Source: Streptococcus suis
GTDB taxonomy: Bacteria > Bacillota > Bacilli > Lactobacillales > Streptococcaceae
NCBI GenBank assembly: GCA_002831545.1
Contig: CP025095.1
Location: 1,550,001 to 1,614,000, forward strand
DNA length: 64,000 nt
Reading direction: 5' to 3'
Shown here piece by piece: positions 5,292-17,301 of this stretch. The position numbers and the translations under genes were made by a program. Position 1 is the first letter of the stretch. Each line of letters begins with the position of its first letter. Below the pieces are notes generated by a model. It ran no database searches, was not told the origin of the DNA, and saw only the letters and a program-made list of their open reading frames with translations.

Positions 5292-6413
5292 TCAAGCTAT
5301 TCTTCCTGTCATCATCCCCCAAATAAAACCAGACAATTCTCGTGCAATAGCTGTTTTAGCAACATTTTGTTTCTTATTTTTTCCTAGAACAAGTGTGCGA
5401 TAACGTCTTCTTAAGCGTTCATTAGCCTTATCCGCATAAGCAATCACCTCCACTCGGTTTCCACTTTGTCTCCGTTTCAATTCTTTGGATTTATACCCAA
5501 TCGTCCCCTTAGCCAATGATTGTGCAGCTTCTATCAGAAGTCGTCTCACATGGCTATTCCCAGCTTTGGTGATAGCACCTCTTCTCTCCTTGTCGCCGCT
5601 AGAATTTTCGCTAGGAGTTAGCCCAAGATAAGAAGCAAAATGTTGAGCTGTCGCAAAGCGATTAAAATCACCGATTTCTGTCACAATGGAAAGAGCAGTT
5701 AGTGTTTTAATGCCAATAAAGCAAGAAAGCCGTGAGACCTTCTCTTGGTAACTGTCGCTTTGACCCAGTTGCTCAATTCGTGCATCATACCGTTCTATTT
5801 GATCTACTAATTTCTCATAGGTCAATAGATATTCTGTCAAAATCTCTGCGTAAAGTCCCTCAGGTTTTAGGGAACGGAGCCAGCGAACATGTTTCTGTGT
5901 CCAATTACTGCTTCCCTCGGTATAGCGAAAATCATGTCGGAGACAGAAGGCAAGAATTTGTTGTTTGATTTTCTTCAGAGCCACTTTGTGGTCTGTTCTC
6001 ATGCGGATATATTCTTTGACTTGTTCATCCTCAACAGTAGGAATATGAACAGGCCGATAGCTACGAAAGGCCAGAGCTTTTGCGAGCTGAGCTGCATCTT
6101 TTTTATCAGTCTTAACACGCTTAGATCCTTCCTTCATCACCGTTGTAGGCGCCATCACGATACAGGGAATCCCGTGAGCTTGTAGCTGGTGATATAGGGT
6201 AAATCCAAGACATCCGGCTTCGTAGCCACATAACACTTCTGCATCTTGACCATATAAACGACGAAGCTCATTCACATAGTTCACAATATAGCTAACATTT
6301 GGACCAACTTTAGTGCTATGTTTGAATTGATTCGCCATCATATCATAATAGCAGAGTGAAAAACTTTCTTTGTGAACATCCATTCCGATGAAAAGTGTGG
6401 TAAAATGAAACAT
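5292..6413 (-). CDS. IS110-family transposase (DEDD plus serine recombinase type)
   Basis: A 373-residue recombinase. The N-terminal RuvC-like DEDD domain begins with FIGMDVHKESF (first Asp near residue 12), continues with CGYEAGCLG (Glu near 65) and KTDKKDAAQLAKALA (paired Asp near 103-106). The C-terminal Transposase_20 domain contains FIGIKTLTALSIVTEIGDF, YLGLTPSENSSG and KAGNSHVRRLLIEAA with the conserved serine. A helical linker (residues 130-230) joins the domains. Length is normal and the gene looks intact. A good GGAGG lies just upstream of the ATG. The intact frame and clean ends suggest recent activity. Confidence 0.93.
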   Translation of the reverse strand: MFHFTTLFIGMDVHKESFSLCYYDMMANQFKHSTKVGPNVSYIVNYVNELRRLYGQDAEVLCGYEAGCLGFTLYHQLQAHGIPCIVMAPTTVMKEGSKRVKTDKKDAAQLAKALAFRSYRPVHIPTVEDEQVKEYIRMRTDHKVALKKIKQQILAFCLRHDFRYTEGSSNWTQKHVRWLRSLKPEGLYAEILTEYLLTYEKLVDQIERYDARIEQLGQSDSYQEKVSRLSCFIGIKTLTALSIVTEIGDFNRFATAQHFASYLGLTPSENSSGDKERRGAITKAGNSHVRRLLIEAAQSLAKGTIGYKSKELKRRQSGNRVEVIAYADKANERLRRRYRTLVLGKNKKQNVAKTAIARELSGFIWGMMTGRIA

Positions 6414-6522
6414 ATAAGACCTCCAATTGAGTGTGGTAATTCCTGTTAGAAGTTGATTGTTTTTTTTATTCTAGTGTACAGGTAAATCCACGAATTCTCA
6501 ACTGGGGGTCTTTACATATTGT

Positions 6523-7323
6523 CTATAAAATCATCTCATCGTCAGTTAGTTTCTCACCGCTGTTTTTGTAGAAAAGGTCCATCAAGTTTTGAACAGTCAA
6601 GTTCTTCTTCTCTTCTCCTTCTACATCAACAACAATCTGACCACGGTGCAACATGACCAAACGATTACCATATTCAATGGCGTTTTCCATATTATGCGTA
6701 ATCATCAGAGCTGTCAACCGGTGACTTTCCACGATTTTCTTGGTCAATTCCATAACCATATCGCTGGTTTTTGGATCAAGGGCCGCAGTGTGTTCGTCCA
6801 GGAGCAGAACTTTTGGTTTAACCAGCGAAGCCATCATCAAGGTCAGAGCCTGACGTTGACCACCTGAAAGAAATTGCGTGTCCACCTTCATACGGTTTTC
6901 TAATCCCAGACCAAGCTCTTTCAAGGCTTCCTTAAAAATAGCACGTTCACTATCCTTCACACCCCAACCAAGACCGCGCGACAATCCACGACGATAGGCA
7001 ATAGCCATATTTTCTTCAATGGTCAAGCGGGAAGCTGTTCCCATCTTAGGATCTTGGAAAACACGGCTGATGTCCTTAGAACGTTTGGCAGCTGAGACAT
7101 GCTTAATGGATTTACCTTCAAGCAAAATATCGCCCGAATCAACCGTCAAGGCACCTGCAAGTGAGTTCATGAAAGTTGATTTACCAGCACCATTACCACC
7201 GATGATAGAGATAAAATCCCCTTCTTTCACATCTAGGTTCAACCCACGAAGGACATGGTTCTCATTAACTGTTCCAGCTTCGAAGGTTTTATGAATATTT
7301 TGAATTGATAAAATTGTAGACAT
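6523..7323 (-). CDS. ABC transporter ATP-binding protein (aromatic-type importer)
   Basis: The energy-supplying subunit of the importer. It has Walker A GGNGAGKSTFMNSLAG (about residues 42-57), signature LSGGQRQALTLMMA and Walker B VLLLDEHTAALDP, with the switch His in MITHNMENA. At 266 residues it has normal length. It belongs to the class paired with BPD_transp_2 permeases and PF04392 binding proteins, described in some Gram-positives as a tryptophan/tyrosine transporter. It is the last gene of the four-gene operon, 9 bp after the permease. Its stop codon is only a few bases from the IS110-type element, so the operon's native terminator may have been displaced. Confidence 0.9.
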   Translation of the reverse strand: MSTILSIQNIHKTFEAGTVNENHVLRGLNLDVKEGDFISIIGGNGAGKSTFMNSLAGALTVDSGDILLEGKSIKHVSAAKRSKDISRVFQDPKMGTASRLTIEENMAIAYRRGLSRGLGWGVKDSERAIFKEALKELGLGLENRMKVDTQFLSGGQRQALTLMMASLVKPKVLLLDEHTAALDPKTSDMVMELTKKIVESHRLTALMITHNMENAIEYGNRLVMLHRGQIVVDVEGEEKKNLTVQNLMDLFYKNSGEKLTDDEMIL

Positions 7324-7332
7324 GACTTCCTC

Positions 7333-8226
7333 CTAAGCATTTCCATTCAATTTTGGACGACGAATATTCAATTTCTTCTGCAATTCTGGCACATAGAGAA
7401 CGGTTGCCAGAAGGATAGCTGAGAAGAGTTTAACAAGGTCTGCATCCATACCTGGAATTTCCAAAATCGCTAAGATAATCAAACGGTAAACAACTGCACC
7501 GAGAACAACCGATAGGAGTCTCCAACCCAAGCGTAAGTTACGCAAGATAACTTCTGCAATAATGACAGATGCCAAACCGATAACAATGGTACCAGTACCT
7601 GAATTGAGATCTGCATAGCCATTATTCTGAGTAAGAAGAGCACCACAAAGGGCAATTAGACCATTCGACAACATATAGCCGTAGATTTTCATATTATCTA
7701 CATTGATACCATTGGACTCACTCATTGGAATATTATCCCCTGTTGAACGAATAGCTAGACCAATTTGTGTATTGAGCAAGAGCGTCAATAAGCTTATAAC
7801 TGCTAGCACAAAGACCAGACCAATCACCAAAACGGCATTTGTTTTTGTCAAACCGAAATCCTGCAATTGGGTCACTAGAGTTTCTTGCTTAAGTAGAGCC
7901 ACATTGGCTTTGCCTAATATTTTCAAGTTGATAGAGTAGAGACCTGTCAAGGTTACAATACCAGTCAAAAGGGCTGGAATTTTTAGTTTTGTATGAAGTA
8001 ACCCAGAAATCAAGCCTGCACCCATACCAACTACCATAGCCATAAAGGTTGCCAGCAAGGGACTCACTCCGTTCACAATCCCTGTCGCACAAACAGCAGC
8101 TCCAAGCGGATAAGACCCCTCAGCTGTCATATCAGCAATATCTAAAATACGAAACGTCAAGTAAACACCAATCGCCATAACTGACCAAAGCAAGCCTTGC
8201 GAGATACTTGATAAAATAATATCCAC
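7333..8226 (-). CDS. ABC transporter permease (BPD_transp_2 family)
   Basis: The membrane channel of the importer, 297 residues with about eight to nine hydrophobic segments, starting MDIILSSISQGLLWSVMAIGVYLTFRIL. The segment DMTAEGSYPLGAAVCA and the late segment GLASVIIAEVILRNLRLGWRL are typical of this branched-chain-type permease family in its YufP/TrpY-like branch. It forms a dimer with the ATPase encoded immediately downstream. The ATG follows GGAGAAAATCGTGG. The gene looks intact. Substrate cannot be read from the permease itself; the aromatic assignment rests on the operon's leader peptide. Confidence 0.88.
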   Translation of the reverse strand: MDIILSSISQGLLWSVMAIGVYLTFRILDIADMTAEGSYPLGAAVCATGIVNGVSPLLATFMAMVVGMGAGLISGLLHTKLKIPALLTGIVTLTGLYSINLKILGKANVALLKQETLVTQLQDFGLTKTNAVLVIGLVFVLAVISLLTLLLNTQIGLAIRSTGDNIPMSESNGINVDNMKIYGYMLSNGLIALCGALLTQNNGYADLNSGTGTIVIGLASVIIAEVILRNLRLGWRLLSVVLGAVVYRLIILAILEIPGMDADLVKLFSAILLATVLYVPELQKKLNIRRPKLNGNA

Positions 8227-8280
8227 GATTTTCTCCTTTTTCTAAATTCGTAGTCAATACTAGGTTCTATCTTACCAATC

Positions 8281-9255
8281 TTATTCCGATACAGCAAGCT
8301 TAGAAGTATCGATACCTAATTTCTGAGCCATTTCTTCATTAACGTGAAGACTGACGGTCTCTGGGTATTCTACTGCTGTTTCTGACACATTGGCTCCTTC
8401 GATAATCTTAATAGCCATTTTTGCAGTTTGACGACCTAAAGCTACATAGTTGGTACCGTAAGTCAAAAGCCCTCCTTCATCCACCATGTCCGTTGAACCA
8501 CCGATTACTGGAACCTTATGCTCCACAGATAATTCACCGATCATGGTCATGGTTGAAGCGACAGTATTGTCTGTTGGAATAAAGAGAGCATCTACATCCT
8601 TCATCAAGCTAGTTGTCGCATCTTGGACTTCATTTGAAGATGTGATTCCTTTTACTACTACCTTATAACCTGCTTTTTCCAGCAATTCCTTAGCTTGCTC
8701 TACCTGGACTTCTGAATTACGTTCGCTAGTAGTGTACAAAATACCAACTGTCTTAGCATCTGGAACAGCTTGACCTAGCAATTCAACCTGTTTGTCAATT
8801 GGAGCTTGATCAGAAGTACCTGTCAAAAGTCCACCTGGTTTTTCAATGGATTCTACCAAGTCAGCTGACAAGGGATCTGTAACCGCAGTAAAGACAATCG
8901 GCGTTTCAGTAGACACAGTCGCTAAACTCTGGGCAGACGGCGTAGCGATTGCCAAGACAATATCATTTCCATCGATTAATTGTTCTGAAATGGTTTGAAG
9001 ATTAGCTTGATCGCCTTGGGCATTTTGATAATCCAAAACCAATTTTTCACCCTCTTTATAACCATTTGCTTCTAATTCCGCCACAAAACCCTCACGGGCA
9101 GCTGTCAATGATTCATGCTCCATATATTGGAGAACTCCAACTTTTACCACATCTGAGGAAGCTTGTTCTGATGATGAGGAACAAGCTGCAAGTGTTAGCA
9201 AACCCATACTTGCTACTGAAATAGTTGCCAATTTTTTTACTAGCTTATAATACAT
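8281..9255 (-). CDS. ABC transporter substrate-binding lipoprotein, second copy in operon
   Basis: A 324-residue lipoprotein with a signal peptide ending in the lipobox LTLAAC (Cys near residue 25) and a serine-rich linker. The mature part fits the PF04392 ABC_sub_bind family: VGVLQYMEHESLTAAREGFV, YQNAQGDQANLQTIS, AIATPSAQ, FTAVTDPLSADLV, LYTTSERNSEVQVEQAKELL and PTDNTVASTM. It lies 23 bp after its paralogue and 54 bp before the permease. Two lipoproteins for one permease suggest a broadened substrate range or two affinities. It would sit on the outer face of the membrane. Substrate is inferred from the leader. Confidence 0.88.
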   Translation of the reverse strand: MYYKLVKKLATISVASMGLLTLAACSSSSEQASSDVVKVGVLQYMEHESLTAAREGFVAELEANGYKEGEKLVLDYQNAQGDQANLQTISEQLIDGNDIVLAIATPSAQSLATVSTETPIVFTAVTDPLSADLVESIEKPGGLLTGTSDQAPIDKQVELLGQAVPDAKTVGILYTTSERNSEVQVEQAKELLEKAGYKVVVKGITSSNEVQDATTSLMKDVDALFIPTDNTVASTMTMIGELSVEHKVPVIGGSTDMVDEGGLLTYGTNYVALGRQTAKMAIKIIEGANVSETAVEYPETVSLHVNEEMAQKLGIDTSKLAVSE

Positions 9256-9278
9256 AAACGTTTCTTCTCCTAAATATT

Positions 9279-10238
9279 TTACTCTTCTAATGCTTTTATA
9301 GTCGCTGCATCAATACCAACAGCTTTAGCCATTTCTTCATTGACGGTAATAGCCGCTGTATTTGGTTTTTCAACTGCTAAGTCAGCAAGCTTTTCACCCT
9401 TCAAAATCTTCACAGCCAATTCACCAGATTGAACACCGATAGCATGGTAGTCGACACCGTAGGTAAATAGAGCTGCGTCAATAACTGCCGCGTCACTTCC
9501 CATAGCTGGAACTTTTGCTTCTTTTAAAATATCACCGATTGTTGAAGCTGTAGAGGCAACTGTATTATCAGTTGGAAGATAGATAGCATCGACTTTTCCT
9601 GCAAGTGAAGTAATAGCTTGCTGAACATCGTTTGTCGTCGTAACTGTTGTCACTTCTACTTTTACACCTTTTGCTTCGAGTGCTTTTTTAGCCTGCTCAG
9701 CTTGGACTTCTGAGTTTACCTCGCTAGAATTGTAGAAAATACCGACAGTCTTCGCAGTTGGTACAACTTTGAGCAACATCTCGATTTGACCTTCCACATC
9801 AGTTGCATCAGTCGATCCCGTCATGGTCCCACCTGGTTTTTCCAATGATTCAACCAAACCTGCTTCAACTGGATCTGTGACAGCTGTGAATACACTTGAT
9901 GTTTCACTATCTGCATTAAGCATGGCTTGGGCTGCCGGTGTTGCGATGGCAAAGTTAAGATCATTTTTCCCTGCCAATTTCTCAACCATTGTCTGTAAGT
10001 TTGCTTGATCACCTTGGGCATTTTGCAAATCAATCGTCAGATTTTCACCTTCCTTGTAGCCTGCTTCTTCGAGTGCCTCTACAAAGCCTTCACGAGCTGA
10101 GGTCAACGCTTCATGTTCAGCATATTGAATAATACCAACATTGACTGAACTTGAATCTGACGAATTGGAACTGCATGCAGCAAGCGTTACTGCTGACAAA
10201 AGTGCTACTGAACTAAGTATAATTTTTTTAAATCCCAT
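9279..10238 (-). CDS. ABC transporter substrate-binding lipoprotein, first copy in operon
   Basis: A 319-residue lipoprotein, lipobox VTLAAC (Cys near residue 22), paralogous to the next gene along its whole length: VGIIQYAEHEALTSAREGFV, LQNAQGDQANLQTMV, AIATPAAQAM, FTAVTDPVEAGLV, PTDNTVASTAS. This is the PF04392 family. It is the first structural gene of the importer operon. Its ATG follows AGGAGAATAATC, directly after the long leader described separately. The two lipoproteins have diverged in the second lobe, which may reflect different ligands; this is inference. Confidence 0.88.
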   Translation of the reverse strand: MGFKKIILSSVALLSAVTLAACSSNSSDSSSVNVGIIQYAEHEALTSAREGFVEALEEAGYKEGENLTIDLQNAQGDQANLQTMVEKLAGKNDLNFAIATPAAQAMLNADSETSSVFTAVTDPVEAGLVESLEKPGGTMTGSTDATDVEGQIEMLLKVVPTAKTVGIFYNSSEVNSEVQAEQAKKALEAKGVKVEVTTVTTTNDVQQAITSLAGKVDAIYLPTDNTVASTASTIGDILKEAKVPAMGSDAAVIDAALFTYGVDYHAIGVQSGELAVKILKGEKLADLAVEKPNTAAITVNEEMAKAVGIDAATIKALEE

Positions 10239-10267
10239 GATTATTCTCCTTTTATAAATATAATTGT

Positions 10268-10309
10268 AAACAAGAAAGGACCGCTTAGACTACACTCTAA
10301 ACGGTCCTT
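10268..10309 (-). terminator. Attenuator terminator before the importer genes
   Basis: On the minus-strand RNA, AAGGACCGUUUAGA (10309-10296) pairs with UCUAAGCGGUCCUU (10289-10276) in a 14-bp stem with one U-G pair and a 6-nt loop, followed by UCUUGUUU. It lies between the leader peptide and the first structural gene, so it must be read through for the importer to be expressed. Its 5' arm has an alternative partner at 10358-10350. Confidence 0.88.
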
Positions 10310-10544
10310 ATATTTCATCTGTATAGGAAAACAGAATGAATTATCCGTGCCATTTAGATGTATCATCTATGAGGCACATGTCAAAATAGCTACAGCCACA
10401 TAGATACAAACTTTACGTTCCCGTGTTTGCATCCATGTTTACCATGACTACAAACACTACCTAAAATAGCCGTAGAAATAAGTATGATTAGCTGAATGAT
10501 TTTGACACATTTGTAACATCTCTGTTTCCCTTTCTCATTTATTT
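10276..10544 (-). promoter_or_regulatory. Leader-peptide transcription attenuator of the aromatic importer operon
   Basis: The leader RNA can fold in two exclusive ways. Fold A: CUACGGCUAU (10475-10466, over the Tyr-Gly-Tyr codons) pairs with GUGGCUGUAG (10399-10390); then GUGCC/GGCAC and UAGAUG/CAUCUA form a hairpin (10377-10347) and the terminator forms. Fold B: with the first segment masked by a stalled ribosome, AUCUAUG-U-GGC (10405-10395) pairs with GCC-U-CAUAGAU (10375-10365), freeing UCUAAAUGG (10358-10350). That segment pairs over 9 bp with CCGUUUAGA (10304-10296), the terminator's 5' arm. A spacer hairpin GUGUUUG/CAAACAC (about 10457-10424) brings the segments together. All pairings were worked out by hand. 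The mechanism is inferred, but its logic is complete. Confidence 0.75.
10457..10519 (-). CDS. Aromatic-rich leader peptide (20 residues)
   Basis: The short frame reads MLQMCQNHSANHTYFYGYFR, then TAG. Five of the last seven residues are Tyr or Phe, which suits a ribosome-stalling sensor for these amino acids. AAAGGGA lies 8 nt before the ATG. The predicted transcript starts about 25 nt upstream, so the peptide is the first thing translated. The Tyr/Phe codons overlap the first pairing segment of the attenuator. Too short to have a family assignment; I do not recognise it from memory as a named leader. Confidence 0.75.
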   Translation of the reverse strand: MLQMCQNHSANHTYFYGYFR

Positions 10545-10550
10545 GTAACT

Positions 10551-10579
10551 ATCATAACTGTTTTCAAATTATTTGTCAA
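10551..10579 (-). promoter_or_regulatory. Promoter of the importer operon
   Basis: On the minus strand TTGACA (10579-10574), a 17-bp spacer and TATGAT (10556-10551) make a near-consensus sigma-A promoter. Predicted start is about 10544. A strong promoter followed by a terminator is typical of attenuated operons. Confidence 0.88.
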
Positions 10580-10741
10580 TAGGAAATTGCGTAAATTTTC
10601 AGATTTTTCAAGTTTTTTCGAATTTTTCTAAAAATAGAACCCTATATTATTAGCTATAAAACGATCTGTCATCATGTTTATATAGCTTTTTACTTTACTT
10701 TTATACTCAATTAAATTAAAAATCTGAAGTACAATAGAAAC

Positions 10742-11847
10742 ATGGAATTTACTAACGAAATGATTAAAGAGCTCAAAACAGCTCTAAAAGATAAAAACTT
10801 AGCACCTTATCACAAACGTATTCAAGCAGTATATCTTAGGGCTATCCATACTCCCTACAAAGCGATTATGGACATGCTGAATGTCTCACACGATACAATT
10901 TGGAGACTGACTAAGAAATTATCAAGAACATGGTTTAACAGGTCTTACATCAGATGCTAGAGGAGGTCGTCGCCACTCTTATATGACAGTTGAAGAAGAA
11001 CAAGCCTTCTTGAGTGAGCAGTTAACTTCTGCTGTAAATGGAGAATTTGTAACTGTTGAATCCCTCTATAGAGCTTATCAAGATAAAATTGGTCGCACGA
11101 CAACTAAAGATGGTTTCTACCAACTATTGAAACGTCATGGATGGGTCAAAGAATCAAAAGATTCTTTGAGACGGGAAATAAAGCTTACGCAGTAAGCAAC
11201 AAAAATTAGCCCCCGTCCAGAACATCCAAAGAAAGCAGACGCCGAAACGATTCTAGCGTCTAAAAATAAAATCTTTGTACAAGGAAAAGTCAGGCAAGCG
11301 GTTTCTTGAACAAAATTCCTACAACCAAACCCGGCTTATATATCAAGATGAAGCAGGGTTTGGTCGGATTAGTAAACTGGGGGCATGTTGGAGTCCTAAA
11401 AACTACCGTCCGAATATCTCAAGCCATCATATCCGAGAATTTCGTTACTGCTATGGTGCGGCAGATGCACACACAGGGGAATCTTTCTTCATAATAGCTA
11501 GTGGTTGTAATACCGCTTGGATGAATGAATTTTTACGTCAATTATCAAAAGCTTATCCCGATGACTACATCATTTTAGTCATGGACAATGCAATTTGGCA
11601 TAAATCTCAGGCACTTGAAATTCCTGATAATATTGAATTTGCGTTCATACCACCATATACCCCTGAGATGAATCCCATTGAACAAGTTTGGGCAGAAATC
11701 CGCAAACGCGGATTTAAGAACAGAGCTTTTCAAACATTGGAGTCAGTCATTGATAAGCTCCAAGAAATCATTCAAGAGTTAGATAGTGAAACTCTAAAAA
11801 GTATTGTACATAGAAAATGGGTTTATTCAGATTTTGAAATCGAATAA
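10742..11847 (+). pseudogene. IS630-family transposase, frameshifted remnant
   Basis: Three consecutive frames together make one IS630 transposase. The first (10742-10960) is the helix-turn-helix part, HKRIQAVYLRAIHTPYKAIMD. Removing one T near 10917 continues it as KKYQEHGLTGLTSDARGGRR and on into the second frame (10983-11195). A further break at about 11190-11290 precedes the catalytic DDE domain with YQDEAGFG, VMDNAIWHKS and TPEMNPIEQVWAEIRKRG (11275-11847). At least two disruptions mean it cannot make one protein. Its 3' end runs directly into IS66-derived sequence at 11850. Promoter-like sequence precedes it but function is not expected. Confidence 0.85.
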
Positions 11848-11849
11848 GC

Positions 11850-12001
11850 ATCATTTCTGCTTTTCTTCTCAAAGCGGCGAGATTGGGGAATAGTCAGTGG
11901 GACGATGGGCTGTGACATAAAAAAATCCTCCAGTTATGTTTTTCTAACAATATACTGGAGGAGGGAGTGATTAGATAGATACCTTGTTATTGGGCGGTTA
12001 C
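11850..12001 (-). mobile_element. IS66 end remnant (152 bp)
   Basis: This stretch aligns base for base, with few differences, to 14145-14296 of the complete IS66. It includes the start of tnpA (ATG after GGAGG) and the terminal repeat ending in TTATTGGGCGGTTAC. It has the same orientation as the complete copy, and its inner side is truncated against the IS630 remnant. It marks an older IS66 insertion at the same place. Confidence 0.82.
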
Positions 12002-12002
12002 G

Positions 12003-12038
12003 AATGATTGGATAGGTACCTTGTTATGGGGCGGTTAC
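12003..12038 (-). mobile_element. Second IS66 terminal fragment (36 bp)
   Basis: The sequence from ATGATTGGATAGG through TTATGGGGCGGTTAC matches the last 36 bp of the IS66 terminus with about five changes. It lies directly after the previous remnant and 21 bp before the target duplication of the complete IS66. Three IS66 ends therefore sit in a row in one orientation. Confidence 0.7.
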
Positions 12039-12132
12039 GGTTACCCTAGTACGAGCAACGCCTCTCCGTAACCGCCCAATAACAAGGTATATTGAAAAGG
12101 TTCCAAAGTCCTGTCGACTCTGGAACCTTTTT

Positions 12133-13645
12133 CTATTTACACGCTCTCTTAATTGTTTCCTTCCATGGCAAATAAGCCTCTAGCACCTCTTTTTTTGCGA
12201 GCGTCTCTTCGTTGGGTAAGTGTTCTAGAAGATAGGTCATATATTTCTCTGCATCAAGTCCGTGTCGCTTAGCTGTTTCCAAAAGACTCAAAATGACAGC
12301 TGTCGACTTGGCTCCCTCAAAGCTCTGAGAGAACAGCCAATTTTTTCTGCCCATCACCAAGGTCTTCATAGCCCTCTCAGCCATATTGTTGGATAGGACT
12401 AGGTCACCGTCCAAGAGAACGTTTCGGAAGGTGGTTTCGTATTTGAGGCTATACTCCATTGCAGTGCCCAATTTGGAGCCTGGCAAAACGGCCTGATTGC
12501 GACACCAATCAAAGAACTCGTCCATCAAGGGAGTTAACTCTGTCTGCCGTTTATGTCGCCGTTCCTCAGTAGACAAATCTGCCCAGTCATTCTCTAAGGC
12601 AAATAGGCGGTCGCAATAGGCTAAACCCTTAGCACCTAAAGAAGTCTTGTCTGTCTTCTTAGGAGTCGCCTCAAAGAATTTTCTTCTGACATGAGCCCAA
12701 CAGCCAACCAGCTGAGCCTTGTCTAACTGCCGATAGGCTGACCACATGTCACAATGTACATAGCCCGCATAGTCCCCAAGAACTTCCTCCACAACCAAGC
12801 CACTCCGTCGTTTGTCATGATGATAGAGGGTGATGCCCTTTTTCTCATGCTTCCCAGACAAGAAAGTCCAGTAGAAGGTCAACTGGCTATCATTTTCTAA
12901 GACCTTGTAGGAGGTTTCATCCGCATGGAGAATAGGCTGCTCCAACAATTTCTCGTGCAACAGGTTATAAATCGGTTCGAAATAATACTGACTAGACTTG
13001 ATGTGCCAATTGGCTATTTCCTTGCGACTGATGGGCAGACCGAGCTTGTTCCAATCCTCTTCCTGACGGTAATTGGGCACCTTCAGATTGAACTTCTGGT
13101 GAATGGTGTGGGCAATGATAGAGGCTGAACCCAAGCTGTGTGCCAAAGGTGCCTTAGGAATGGGAGCCTTGATAATCTTATCGCTCAGATTCTTCTGACT
13201 ACATGCCTGACACTTGTATGCGTGTTGAACATGGTCAATCCGCTTTAATTGTGCAGGAATGAAGACCAACTCTTGTCGTTGAACAGTTGAACCAATCTCC
13301 TTTAATTGACCATGACAGTCTGGACAGGTACAATCTTCGCCTTGCAATTCGTGATGCACTATCTCTGGAGTGAATTGGCTGAAAATAGCCTGACGAACTC
13401 CCTTAGCTTTCTTGCGTTTATAGGTAATCGTTTCTGTTTCAACTGGGTAAGTCAGCTTCTTCTTCAGGGAGAATTTCCTCCCCAAACAAGCTCAGCTGAC
13501 CGGGTTGATACACAACCTTCTCTGATGATTTTCCGTAGAGTTTCTGTCTCAGATACTCAATCTGTTCACGAAGGAGGCTCAACTCGTTGGTCATGATTTC
13601 AATGGTTTTTGTTAGACTTTCAATCACTTTATCTTGTGACTCCAT
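12133..13645 (-). pseudogene. tnpC: IS66 transposase TnpC, single frameshift
   Basis: The N-terminal part (13645 to about 13445) has the leucine-zipper-like region and the RQKLYGKSSEKV motif of IS66 transposases, ending SLFGEEILPEEEADLP. The rest continues in another frame as VETETITYKRKKAKG and runs to 12133, with zinc-binding CTCPDCH and CQAC motifs, the DDE domain with HADETSYKV, HCDMWSAYRQ and ERAMKTLVMGRKN. One extra C in a CCC near 13445 explains the break. IS66 is not known to need a programmed shift here, so the copy is probably inactive unless helped in trans. A sequencing error is the alternative. Confidence 0.85.
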
Positions 13646-13696
13646 GGACTTACCTCCTTCTTTTTATCTCATTATACACAAAGAAAAGCCATGATT

Positions 13697-14047
13697 TCAA
13701 TAGAAATCACGACTTTTTGAAAGATTTATTTTTGGATTGATAGAAAATCCTTTCATGAGCCAGTCCACCTGCTCGGAAGTTAGAGCCTTGACCTCTTCTT
13801 CATTGTTTGGCCAGGTCAATTTTCCATTCTCAAAACGTTTATACAATAACCAAAATCCTTGTCCGTCCCAGTAAAGAGCTTTGAATCGGTCTTTTCGACC
13901 TCCGCAGAAGAGATAGACCTGACCTGAAAAGGGATCCAGATTGAATTGACTTTTGACAAGGTAGGCGAGAGAATCAATCCCTTGACGCATGTCCGTTTTA
14001 CCGCAAACCAAGTAGACTTGACCTAAATCACTGAGTCGGATGGTCAT
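13697..14047 (-). CDS. tnpB: IS66 accessory protein TnpB (Orf2)
   Basis: A 116-residue IS66 Orf2 protein starting MTIRLSDLGQVYLVCGKTDM, with RQGIDSLAYLVKSQFNLDPF, the family motif VYLFCGGRKDRFKALYWDG and GFWLLYKRFENG. Its start overlaps the end of tnpA by 20 bp, typical of this IS family. It is needed for transposition with TnpC, although its precise activity is unclear. The gene is intact. Confidence 0.92.
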   Translation of the reverse strand: MTIRLSDLGQVYLVCGKTDMRQGIDSLAYLVKSQFNLDPFSGQVYLFCGGRKDRFKALYWDGQGFWLLYKRFENGKLTWPNNEEEVKALTSEQVDWLMKGFSINPKINLSKSRDFY

Positions 14048-14213
14048 AGTGCAGTACCTTATCCAAGATTGTTTCTAATATTTTTTGGTTGATAGAGTGA
14101 AAGAATGTGACTTCCACTTTTCCGAGACGAATTTTCATCAGAATATCGTTTCTGCCTTTCTTCTCAAAGCGGCGAGATTGGGGAACAGTCAATGGGACGA
14201 TGGGCTGTGACAT
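14028..14213 (-). CDS. tnpA: IS66 small accessory protein TnpA
   Basis: A 61-residue protein, MSQPIVPLTVPQSRRF to LDKVLHYDHPTQ. The ATG at 14213 follows GGAGG by 6 nt, and the same start with ribosome site is preserved in the remnant at 11850-12001. A longer in-frame extension upstream would run through the terminal repeat and is unlikely to be real. It is basic and helical as expected of TnpA-like helpers; the position before tnpB supports the call. Confidence 0.75.
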   Translation of the reverse strand: MSQPIVPLTVPQSRRFEKKGRNDILMKIRLGKVEVTFFHSINQKILETILDKVLHYDHPTQ

Positions 14214-14313
14214 AATAAATCCTCCAGTTTTGTTTTTTATAACAGTATACTGGAGGAGGGAGTGATTAGATAGATACTTTGTTATTGGGCGGTTACGCCT
14301 CTCCTTTAAACCG

Positions 14314-14358
14314 AAAAAATCCCATTGCCACAGATTCAACCTGACAATGAGATTTTTT
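14314..14358 (-). terminator. Terminator of the pilus operon
   Basis: AAAAAATC (14314-14321) pairs with GATTTTTT (14351-14358), and CATTG (14323-14327) with CAATG (14345-14349), one mismatch apart. The A/U ends would let it work in both directions. It lies 24 bp after the minor pilin stop. Its presence argues that the operon naturally ended here, without a sortase gene after the minor pilin. Confidence 0.8.
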
Positions 14359-14381: not shown

Positions 14382-15236
14382 CTATCGTTTCGTATAAGTA
14401 ACCAAACGATAGCCCAGCAAGAAGAGGATAATGCCTAGCGACAGAACCGCTATGACCACCGCATTCCCTGTATATGGAATCTCAATACCGGGCGGTGTGA
14501 TGGGCTTGTTCTTGATTTTTACAATCTCAGAAACATGCGAATCCGAGCTAATCTCAAACGGTATCGTATCGTGAGACAGAAGATATCCTGTAGGTGCCTG
14601 CACCTCCTTTAGGTAATAACGACCATAAGGAAGAGAACCTACTTGAAAACGACCATCTGAGCCTGAAGTGACATGATAAGAATTGCCGTCGATAGTCACT
14701 TCCTTCAGTTCTCCATTCACTTCCTCAAGGACTACAAACTCTGCCCCTGATAAGGGAGCTGTGCTTGTTGAAACCTTCAGAAAGGTTTTACTGCCGGTTT
14801 CCTTGCTTGGTCTTCTGACTTTTGCCTCAATCTGCGCAACACTGCCGTCAACTTTCATCAAGAATGGGACAACCTCGAGACTCGTAGGAGTTCCTACTTG
14901 TCGGACATAATACCACCCTTTAGCCAAACCCTGAAAAGTGGCCTGACCTTCTGAAGTAAGGGCTTGCGAAGAAATCGGCTCTCCGTAGAGTTGGTTTAAC
15001 TCGGACCGACTTTTTATATATAAAGTATCTGCCAACTGTCCAGAAGAGGCTGGCTCTTCTGCAGCAATATACCAAGCCTCCAAGCCTGTCGACACTTGAC
15101 TGGCATCTATTCCGTCTGGAAGAGGAATATGAACCTGAACATCAAAGGAGTCTTGTGCTTGAAGTGAAAGCGAGGGCAGTGACAATACACAAATAATAGC
15201 TATGAAACAACATACTAGCTGTCTGATTCGTCTCAT
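14382..15236 (-). CDS. Minor (anchor-type) pilin, LPXTG-like
   Basis: A 284-residue exported protein with a signal peptide ending about residue 27 (LSLQA). One SpaA/Cna-B-type module lies at about residues 145-245, with the E-box YYLKEVQAPTGYLL. The sorting signal is IPYTGN (near 254-259), followed by a hydrophobic segment and the tail YTKR. The short length and single module suit a basal or anchor pilin. It lies 24 bp after the backbone pilin in the same operon and ends at the terminator. The sorting motif differs from the canonical LPXTG and from that of the giant adhesin, which may mean different sortase preferences. Confidence 0.82.
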   Translation of the reverse strand: MRRIRQLVCCFIAIICVLSLPSLSLQAQDSFDVQVHIPLPDGIDASQVSTGLEAWYIAAEEPASSGQLADTLYIKSRSELNQLYGEPISSQALTSEGQATFQGLAKGWYYVRQVGTPTSLEVVPFLMKVDGSVAQIEAKVRRPSKETGSKTFLKVSTSTAPLSGAEFVVLEEVNGELKEVTIDGNSYHVTSGSDGRFQVGSLPYGRYYLKEVQAPTGYLLSHDTIPFEISSDSHVSEIVKIKNKPITPPGIEIPYTGNAVVIAVLSLGIILFLLGYRLVTYTKR

Positions 15237-15260
15237 CTGTCCCTCCTTTTCTACTCTATC

Positions 15261-17261
15261 CTAGGCGTCTTCTGCCTGGCGTTTTTTCATAGCGATGAAT
15301 GCAAATACCATTGTACTCAAACCTACAACTGTAAATACAACTGTACCAATGCCACCAGTTTGTGGAATGGTAATCTTTTTGTTTTTCACTTGTTGGAAGT
15401 TAGTAGTATTTACCTCTTCACCTGAACCCCAGCTACCTCTATTCACTGTAAATTGAATCTTATCACTTGGTAAAGCGTAGCCTTCTGGAGCCTTGGTTTC
15501 TTTCAAGTAGTAGGTTCCAGCTTTCAAACCTTTAACTTCGAATTTACCTTCTGTAGATGAAATGAACTTGAAAGCTTGAGACTCATCTGCTACCCACTGC
15601 CACTGCATATTCAAGGCTTCATAGGCTGCATCACGTGCTGCTTTTTTAGTAACAACTTCACCACTATTTGCTTTTACTGCTGCAAGATAATCTTGTTCTG
15701 CTTGTGTGTACTTAGTCAATGAATCTGCTTGGGTATTTGCTGATTTCAAAGCCAAATATTGATTTTGATCATTCGTCACCACAAACTCTGCGCCGAGAAG
15801 TTTGTCACCACCAAAGTTGTCTTGATTATCTGTCTTGATGAAACGTTTTCCGTGAGTGATAACTTTTGGTTGTTCTGGTACTAGCGGTGGTGGGTTGTCT
15901 GATGGGTTGTTGGTTACGGTGAGGATATGACCTTTATCAACACCTTGTTCAACAGTATAAGTTGGAAGGTAGCCGTTAATATCCTTTTCGACAACTATGT
16001 ATTCTTTTGTTGATTTTAAATCAGCATGAGTAAACTCAATTTCTGTTTGACCTGGTTGAATTGTAATTTCTTCACCAATCTTTTTACCAGTTTCTTTTTC
16101 ATAGACAACAAATGTTGCAGATTTATTTTGTGACTTATCTCCCCAAACTTTATTGATTTTAATTTTCAGCTGACCACCTTCTTCTTTCGGTGTCACTGGT
16201 TTTGGCTCTGAATCAGTGAAGGTACGTGGGCGGTTACCATAGTGGAATTTCACTTTGTTAGGGATTTCAGTATCAACAATGGCTGAGTCGTTTAGGACAC
16301 CCCTATAGGTCAAAGTGATGTTAACATCCCGAGTTTTAGCAGCCTCTTCAATAGCGGCAAGACCGACTTCCTTCATTTTCACCATAAAGCCACGTTTGTC
16401 TTGAGTAATAGTGTAGTGATCATTTCCATTAAGAGCTACAACTTCTTTAGAAGCAACTTGGATTGAGCCTTCAACAAAGTCCAACCCTTCAACCATCAAG
16501 TCTTCCCAGACAATTGTCTTGTAAGAAGAACCTTTTGGAATTTTTGTAGTGATTTTATAGTCTATTTCTTCGCCAATTTCGACATTTTTTGTATCAGTTT
16601 TATCATTTCCAAAAGTCTTTTTCACAGTCGGCTTATCCTCTGTGTTCTTTGGATAAACATGGAGAGGGTTATTTGTGCTATCAAAATATCCTGTTCCATC
16701 AGGGAGAGTGACTGGTAAGACAAGACGGAATGGAACTGCCTTAGCTTCTGTTAATTCATTACCTTCTTGTTTATTGTAGTAAGGTGAGTTTGCCTTATCT
16801 TCCACAAAGATATAAGTGCCATTTGGAAGTGTAAATTCTGCACCAGCATTATTTTCACCAGTAACTACACCATTAGTACCATACTCTCCATCCATCAATT
16901 TGTAGTTCTCATTAGCACCATCACCAGAGATACCCAACTGATCACCAGTTTTTGTCACTTTATCTTGAGCTTGGTCAACCTTCTTCCAAACCTTGAAGTT
17001 GACACCTGCTATTTCTTTCGCACTACTACCAAAATAATCAGTAATTGTGCCAATCTGATTACCATTGTAGCCATCTTTTTTGGCTTCGTGATCAAAATCA
17101 GCGAACTGTTCCTTATTCAATAAAATTTTATGAACAAAAACTTTCGTTTGCTGCGGTTGCTGTGTATCATCAGCATGTACCAGATGGCGAATATTTCCCA
17201 ATGGACCTAGGATTGTCACTAAGACGGTCAAGAGGGAAAATAATTTCGTTAGTTTTTTCAT
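15261..17261 (-). CDS. Major (backbone) pilin
   Basis: A 666-residue pilin. The signal peptide ends near LVHADD. The pilin motif is LHVYPKN (about residues 200-206), whose lysine is the usual sortase-C polymerisation site. Isopeptide-type Cna-B domains include one with the E-box YYLKETKAPEGYALP. The sorting signal is IPQTGG, followed by a hydrophobic segment and KKRQAEDA. AGGAGA lies 8 nt before the second ATG (17261) and only 0-1 nt from the first (17267), so 17261 is the start. It follows the giant adhesin by about 40 bp. No sortase C is encoded in the window, so polymerisation would need an enzyme from elsewhere. Confidence 0.9.
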   Translation of the reverse strand: MKKLTKLFSLLTVLVTILGPLGNIRHLVHADDTQQPQQTKVFVHKILLNKEQFADFDHEAKKDGYNGNQIGTITDYFGSSAKEIAGVNFKVWKKVDQAQDKVTKTGDQLGISGDGANENYKLMDGEYGTNGVVTGENNAGAEFTLPNGTYIFVEDKANSPYYNKQEGNELTEAKAVPFRLVLPVTLPDGTGYFDSTNNPLHVYPKNTEDKPTVKKTFGNDKTDTKNVEIGEEIDYKITTKIPKGSSYKTIVWEDLMVEGLDFVEGSIQVASKEVVALNGNDHYTITQDKRGFMVKMKEVGLAAIEEAAKTRDVNITLTYRGVLNDSAIVDTEIPNKVKFHYGNRPRTFTDSEPKPVTPKEEGGQLKIKINKVWGDKSQNKSATFVVYEKETGKKIGEEITIQPGQTEIEFTHADLKSTKEYIVVEKDINGYLPTYTVEQGVDKGHILTVTNNPSDNPPPLVPEQPKVITHGKRFIKTDNQDNFGGDKLLGAEFVVTNDQNQYLALKSANTQADSLTKYTQAEQDYLAAVKANSGEVVTKKAARDAAYEALNMQWQWVADESQAFKFISSTEGKFEVKGLKAGTYYLKETKAPEGYALPSDKIQFTVNRGSWGSGEEVNTTNFQQVKNKKITIPQTGGIGTVVFTVVGLSTMVFAFIAMKKRQAEDA

Positions 17262-17301
17262 GAACATTCTCCTATTTTTTTAGTTGTGTTTCCATTAGGG
17301 G

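Follow-up and report, generated by a model that had tools for sequence, protein, structure and literature searches.

An ABC importer operon of Streptococcus suis, located in the 64,000-nucleotide stretch of DNA analyzed here (the window), is very probably controlled by a ribosome-dependent transcription attenuator that senses the charging of tRNA-Tyr and tRNA-Phe, the importer itself being of the Tyr/Phe type. Judged by its sequence, this leader belongs to a class that spans the order and in which the codons are swapped, which goes beyond what an earlier note on this DNA had read in it. The Lactobacillales are likely to own a single homologous attenuator superfamily with exchangeable control codons (Tyr/Phe, Trp or Ile/Leu/Val), an order-wide alternative to the T-box that trades places with it before the Trp importer and is already in Rfam, once as an 'sRNA' and once as a 'riboswitch candidate'. 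Its control codons would also form a switch strand, giving three readouts, on when the ribosome has stalled and off when it has finished or when the leader is not translated. Amino acid genes of Gram-positives are mostly taught as regulated by T-boxes or proteins, and ribosome-dependent leader-peptide attenuators are known from proteobacterial trp, his and phe operons and from actinobacterial trp and ilvB leaders. Leader-peptide attenuation as such is classical; what appears to be new is this scaffold, through which a leader-peptide system would be widespread in an order that includes major food bacteria and pathogens.

The predicted features of the locus, in the direction of transcription, are the following:

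10551..10579, reverse strand: promoter TTGACA-17-TATGAT, sigma-70-type, 11 of 12 consensus matches, predicted from sequence
just 5' of the leader frame ATG at 10519, reverse strand: Shine-Dalgarno sequence GAAAGGG
10457..10519, reverse strand: leader peptide frame MLQMCQNHSANHTYFYGYFR plus stop; ATG at 10519, stop at 10459-10457, 20 codons
10466..10475, reverse strand: S0, control codons (Tyr-Gly-Tyr region), pairs with the 3' part of S3
10449..10455, reverse strand: S1, GUUUGUA, directly 3' of the stop, pairs with S2
10425..10434, reverse strand: S2, GGAUGCAAAC, partner S1 or the 5' part of S3
10390..10411, reverse strand: S3, GUUUGUAUCUAUGUGGCUGUAG, common partner of S2, S4 and S0
10365..10375, reverse strand: S4, GCCUCAUAGAU, partner S3 or S5
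10347..10359, reverse strand: S5, antiterminator strand, AUCUAAAUGGCAC, partner S4 or S6
10276..10309, reverse strand: S6:S7, intrinsic terminator of 14 pairs with U-rich tail
9279..10238, reverse strand: TrpX-like substrate-binding protein 1 (NF041285, 286 bits, cut-off of 390 not reached), predicted Tyr/Phe-type, Tyr at position 273
8281..9255, reverse strand: TrpX-like substrate-binding protein 2 (334 bits, cut-off not reached), Tyr at position 273
7333..8226, reverse strand: ABC permease, TrpY-like by position, other permease models matching weakly only
6523..7323, reverse strand: ABC ATPase

The consensus promoter, the 20-codon Tyr/Phe frame with its ribosome site and the intrinsic terminator had all been claimed in the earlier note and were recovered here. 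The terminator is the sole terminator-like site within 10000-11000, where shuffles expect 0.4. The closest named matches of the importer genes are from S. suis, with 98-99% protein identity. A scan of 6000-14000 with Rfam at E up to 1 returned a single match, RF02863, with 38.1 bits over 10473-10307; no T-box was found there, as the note had said, nor in the whole window at the gathering threshold. The sole Rfam match of the window above gathering is a ribosomal protein L20 leader (RF00558) at 41332-41204 on the reverse strand, with 70.6 bits. By-eye reading of the frame list shows transposase-like IS frames or fragments on the flanks of the operon, at 5292-6413 (reverse), 11275-11847 (forward), 12133-13485 (reverse) and 13697-14339 (reverse), and, at 14382-17267 on the reverse strand, two frames resembling pilus-type surface proteins with sortase-type tails.

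The leader RNA can form a chain of mutually exclusive helices, namely S1:S2, S2:S3 or S0:S3, S3:S4, S4:S5, S5:S6 and S6:S7, as read from the sequence. Four of the pairings had already been proposed and are found at their coordinates, i.e. 10475-10466 with 10399-10390 (S0 with S3, 10 pairs, some of them G-U), 10405-10395 with 10375-10365, the hairpin 10377-10347, and 10358-10350 with 10304-10296. The note had taken its segments as sufficient for the switch; the pairings stand, but they do not provide the off-switch after full translation, because a ribosome at the stop codon would still cover 10475-10466 and thereby favor antitermination. Two further helices are therefore needed for the off state, 10455-10449 with 10431-10425 (S1:S2) and, alternatively, 10434-10425 with 10411-10402 (S2:S3).

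In the mechanism that we propose the position of the ribosome sets the chain. If the footprint of the ribosome reaches, as is usual, some 12-13 bases beyond the A site, a ribosome waiting at Tyr14, Phe15 or Tyr16 would cover S0 and leave S1 free, and one at the stop codon would cover S1. When Tyr and Phe are plentiful the stop would be reached and S1 covered, so that S2:S3 forms, then S4:S5, and S6:S7 terminates. When they are scarce, a stall at the first aromatic codons would allow S1:S2, then S3:S4, which frees S5 to form S5:S6 and leads to read-through. An untranslated leader would form S0:S3 and S4:S5 and terminate, with the same outcome as completed translation. Since S0 pairs with S3, the control codons would also be a switch strand.

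To see whether such leaders carry a common frame, frames were called blind to amino acids, taking the best ATG plus Shine-Dalgarno match with at least 10 codons and a stop near S1. The 202 matched rows contain 26 identical copies, leaving 176 distinct elements, and 174 of them have a short frame whose end lies between -5 and +14 bases relative to a single conserved strand (S1); in 167 of the 176 the frame starts with ATG and has a Shine-Dalgarno match of 4 or more. The two frameless elements (L064 and L250) are self-complementary matches on the wrong strand; hence loss of the frame from a homologous leader, the finding that would speak against the earlier reading, was not seen among the leaders that the models can detect. 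The frame tails fall into Tyr/Phe (YF, 148), Ile/Leu/Val (ILV, 16) and Trp (W, 10) classes. At least four Tyr/Phe in the last eight codons occur in 130 of 167 element frames vs 10 of 581 chance frames, the latter being the ATG plus Shine-Dalgarno frames obtained from 20,000 sites drawn at random from the window. In the remaining two frames of the leader DNA, Leu, Ile, Thr or stops abound and there is no Tyr/Phe bias. As the covariance model (R1) was built from Tyr/Phe leaders, the Ile and Trp finds are not circular. A second model (R2), made from the RNA 3' of the stop codon only, thus peptide-free, and with Trp rows excluded, was run on 40 genomes, and 50 of the loci found, with 57 matches (55 of them distinct), were read. 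In these 50 loci, same-strand matches belong only to the YF, ILV and Trp codon classes (L318, L319 and L321, missed by the 10-codon or start rule, were read by eye, and L320 has an aromatic frame with no Shine-Dalgarno match), and six weak matches on the other strand (L286, L296, L297, L305, L310 and L328) have no such frame.

Some leaders depart from the common layout. In 16 elements (e.g. L101, L110 and L145) the stop lies 8 bases inside S1 and the frames run on, as FRRCL or FRYCL, which would let the ribosome finish inside S1. Lacticaseibacillus (L037 and L159/L161) shows two distinct leaders separated by about 1.4 kb; their tails are YYYGYYG and NFFAGFFG, and each has an element of its own.

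The control codons fit the genes behind the leaders. First downstream genes were clustered by similarity and the cluster representatives named with NCBIfam; four entries (two YF, two RF04312) have no readable downstream gene. All 16 ILV tails precede branched-chain genes, i.e. 10 LivJ-like binding proteins, three ilvE, two ilvA and one ilvB, and TrpX follows 10 of 10 Trp tails. Behind the YF tails (146 readable genes) there are 107 TrpX-like importers, 21 aroE, three aminotransferases, two genes of a group whose scanned member (L229) has a chorismate mutase domain, and one each of aroB-like, aroC, aroF, pheA and a TrpY-like permease. The eight of 146 that lack a clear aromatic link are five polar amino acid ABC genes, one D-lactate dehydrogenase-like gene, one anion symporter and one unknown. 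Thus, in other Lactobacillales, Ile/Leu/Val or Trp codons on the same scaffold precede branched-chain and tryptophan genes. Two of the proteins behind Tyr/Phe leaders have an unusual architecture. One (L229:409-1875, forward strand) has an N-terminal membrane-transporter-like part, by eye, in front of the C-terminal chorismate mutase domain, and the other (L216:111-2594, reverse strand) is a single long chain in which a polar amino acid-type permease is fused to two binding-protein domains.

The exclusive helices are backed by covariation across species, the check that the earlier note had proposed, with S4:S5 the weaker one. S0:S3, to which the alignment was not fitted, is 96.8% paired in 85 distinct rows, with two-sided changes at 6 of 9 pairs; compensatory examples are CUAC/GUAG, CUUU/AAAG and GCUUC/GAGGC. 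For the structure combining S0:S3 and S4:S5 the observed covariation score was reached by none of 500 shuffles and the count of pairs with two-sided changes by one of 500, and shifting the partner by 1-3 columns lowers pairing from 89.1% to 29-45%. S2:S3 is 98.4% paired, with two-sided changes at 3 of 10 pairs. S1:S2 (97.8%, two-sided changes at 6 of 11 pairs) and S3:S4 (94.6%) are helices to which the alignment was fitted. S4:S5 shows 81.3% standard pairs and two-sided changes at 5 of 9 pairs.

The terminator arm binds its own upstream RNA with -11.3 kcal/mol, that of other leaders with -8.7 and shuffled RNA with -6.8 (n = 147: 126 YF, 16 ILV and 5 W), and in 76.5% of comparisons the cognate RNA is the better partner. 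For S0 paired with its own S3 the energy is -13.5 vs -9.6 kcal/mol with the S3 of others, all classes together and for 172 of 174 leaders, the two left out having an unclear S3; within the Trp class alone (n = 10) the cognate S0:S3' pairing is no better than the non-cognate one. A terminator is present by our rule at 164 of 172 elements and absent by it in 8. Several Trp leaders have the U-run behind the S4:S5 hairpin, which is thus itself the terminator; the same ribosome states would then switch in the same direction.

Folding with the ribosome placed at different positions suggests, as a model result, an effect across the family that is real but small. At equilibrium, S6 is held by upstream RNA more in the stalled state than at the stop in 112 of 131 YF leaders (p = 8e-16), and more than in the untranslated state in 118 of 131; for ILV leaders the stalled state exceeds the stop state in 10 of 16 (p = 0.13). 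With S1:S2 imposed, S6 is held upstream more when stalled than at the stop in 113 of 125 YF and 13 of 16 ILV leaders. Before S6 is made, S5 is held at 0.70 in the stalled state vs 0.74 at the stop across the family, and S3:S4 is higher at the stop than stalled in 49 of 126 YF leaders. For the window leader the S6 occupancy at equilibrium is 0.71 stalled, 0.67 at the stop and 0.71 untranslated, S3:S4 stays at or below 0.01 at every ribosome position tried when S1:S2 is not imposed, and S2:S3 is present in both structures printed. The window leader is thus nearly switch-free at equilibrium, so the model needs co-transcriptional kinetics: according to these calculations a kinetic, co-transcriptional switch would be required. 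The sequence evidence supports the interpretation of the earlier note, and this near-absent equilibrium switch counts against it.

The element is widespread within one order. By DNA similarity, the leader region is at least partly present in 27 of 59 genomes, its own genome counted. The RF02863 model matched 108 of 198 Lactobacillales genomes, the 14 control genomes giving no match, and R1 matched 251 of 395 Lactobacillales genomes, covering 61 of 80 genera. In a phylum-wide draw R1 matched 3 of 299 genomes, all three of them Lactobacillales. One genome carries six copies. R1 was run on 34 of a set of 40 importer loci and hit 31 of them once or more, missing L034 (138 bases of upstream sequence), L039 (a clostridium) and L040. 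In the other six (L003, L004, L007, L008, L009 and L038) a leader frame is present by pattern. In L040, from Oenococcus kitaharae, a TrpX-like gene is preceded by the short frame MKIVFKNNSAWWWLG at 2687, which contains three Trp codons and is followed by hairpins; this is perhaps an unrelated Trp attenuator.

Two Rfam families look like members of this class. The trpB motif (RF04312) matched 87 of 148 Lactobacillales genomes, and outside the order gave three weak matches under the cut-off in 299 genomes (L283-L285), with unrelated downstream frames; the genome of the window has no match at E up to 0.001. As published, the motif also has members in Fusobacteria. All 30 loci fetched have a Trp-codon frame that ends upstream of the Rfam match, e.g. 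MNMTQTLTSWQSWRM, with two Trp codons in 27 and one in three (L253, L263 and L276); for L282 the second of two equally scored frames was taken. At least 4 of the 30 are also R1 loci (e.g. L239 = L274, in genome G123). The two hairpins of the motif correspond to S2:S3 and S4:S5 by position, and it overlaps several Tyr/Phe elements, although it was published as a riboswitch candidate and here follows a Trp-codon frame, with S4:S5 itself the terminator in several members. For RF02863 (sRNA_2410 of Enterococcus), 29 of 30 loci read directly (L082-L111, with the L105 locus read as L147) show a leader frame followed by an importer or aroE gene, and the strong matches fetched have the Tyr/Phe frame and the same helices. 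The family is filed as an sRNA gene, its gathering threshold is 61 bits vs 38.1 for the window, and an attenuator role is not mentioned in the accessible part of PMC5593968; the link to the attenuator class is one we infer. No family other than RF02863, RF04312 and the T-box matched the scanned loci at the thresholds used. The livJ motif of Narunsky 2024 was considered as a relative and set aside, being reported mostly from Streptomyces in the portion of PMC11109978 consulted. For the published orphan riboswitch candidate and the orphan sRNA family the present reading would offer a mechanism.

These two filings are rival explanations in their own right, and a third concerns the nature of the stall. 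If a nascent chain were to arrest the ribosome, the peptide, perhaps with a ligand such as free Tyr, would do what we ascribe to uncharged tRNA, and the same RNA switch would follow downstream. Many YF and ILV tails do end Ser-x-x-Arg-stop, which could be an arrest motif, but the nucleotides of Ser, Arg and stop (AGC, AGAUAG) lie within or beside S0, and this position can explain their conservation without such a motif; moreover, the whole tail is swapped for IIISIIR or WQNWRR in leaders whose target genes match the new codons. We regard arrest by the peptide as improbable. A riboswitch that binds a metabolite, or a leader bound by a protein, would make the frame incidental, and has an even smaller chance of being right. 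It would account for the conserved RNA core, with S1-S3 nearly invariant, and the trpB motif is ranked as a strong riboswitch candidate by Narunsky 2024 (PMC11109978), where, in the text available to us, classical attenuation is left open. However, the competing helices explain the conserved core as well. The frame is present in 174 of the 176 elements, its amino acids match the genes, and its Tyr/Phe bias is absent from the other two frames of the same DNA, all of which speaks against an incidental frame.

The role of a trans-acting small RNA, under which Rfam files RF02863, is the least credible of the three. It draws on the 195-nt E. faecium RNA, seen as two transcripts on Northern blots in the accessible part of PMC5593968, but a terminated leader would look like such an RNA, and a leader frame with an importer or aroE gene behind it is what 29 of the 30 RF02863 loci have. 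Attenuation by a leader peptide that reads tRNA charging is the explanation retained in what follows.

The aromatic regulon of low-GC Gram-positives was reportedly described by Panina et al. in 2003, and a leu-phe leader is an Rfam family. The proteobacterial and actinobacterial attenuators, in the part of PMC9413887 seen, share with the present class the short control-codon frame, exclusive helices, an intrinsic terminator and genes for the same amino acid. Unlike them, here one RNA scaffold would serve three amino acid specificities, the control codons would double as a switch strand, and an extra relay helix, S4:S5, precedes the terminator in the YF and ILV classes. Within the Firmicutes a few cases of leader-peptide attenuation are in print, as far as the excerpts of PMC2965389, PMC8632094 and PMC9413887 tell. 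The uORFC-13-1 motif before aroF combines a uORF with Phe codon(s) and a terminator, but is reported, in the same excerpt of PMC8632094, solely from Acholeplasma and environmental DNA; His leader peptides before hisS and hisZ in bacilli (Naville and Gautheret 2010, PMC2965389, seen in part) are also leader-peptide attenuation, but with histidine codons and other genes. Both are likened by description only. A paper describing this scaffold was not found in open-licence PubMed Central, the literature covered.

The substrate of the window importer, which the earlier note had given as probably Tyr and Phe or their precursors, is predicted to be of the Tyr/Phe type from a tree of binding proteins and from residue 273. 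In the tree of 102 proteins (near copies removed, quick search) 23 Trp-leader and 77 Tyr/Phe-leader proteins lie on opposite sides of one branch with an SH-aLRT of 100, the two unlabelled rows being the T-box paralogue and the second binding protein of the window. The S. suis importer that has a Trp T-box (L081) groups with the Trp-leader proteins, the window protein with the Tyr/Phe-leader ones. Residue 273 is Gln in all 34 rows (30 distinct proteins) of Trp-leader proteins, and Tyr (98) or Phe (6) in the 104 Tyr/Phe-leader proteins; both binding proteins of the window have Tyr. Gln273 has been tied to Trp preference (PMC9382623). Three solved relatives were matched, and no others: the pneumococcal protein with Trp bound has Gln at this position, and CD0873 with Tyr bound and VC_1101 with Phe bound have Tyr, which is said to block Trp sterically in the section of PMC6816091 consulted. 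Glu263 of CD0873 was tried as a second Tyr/Phe discriminator and rejected, since the alignment is ambiguous there and Trp-leader proteins also have Asp or Glu. Two independent features, the codons of the leader and residue 273, would hence distinguish Tyr/Phe from Trp importers.

This S. suis genome has 10 T-box matches with E up to 0.001, including one upstream of the paralogous Trp importer that scores 32 bits, under gathering; a T-box, RF00230, senses tRNA charging as well and controls this importer (trpXYZ, PMC9382623), whereas the window leader has no T-box match. A test that could have failed was made on the first 20 streptococcal genomes among the element-free ones listed: 19 have one such importer (E up to 1e-10), with Gln273 in all 19, and no Tyr-type importer without a leader was seen among these 20. 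Of the 19 importer loci 14 were scanned with Rfam: a T-box lies shortly upstream in 11 (above gathering in 10) and the trpB motif in two, both times slightly under gathering; in the last, L353, a T-box matches only partially, at the edge of the locus and some 1.4 kb away from the gene. T-box and attenuator thus appear to replace each other before the Trp importer. The natural set of codon swaps on one scaffold could be used to test how attenuators gain specificities and exchange with T-boxes. Both kinds of regulator also occur at a single locus, where a T-box match of 80.4 bits, under gathering (L163:25-272, reverse strand), lies about 1.2 kb downstream of an Ile-leader element before ilvA.
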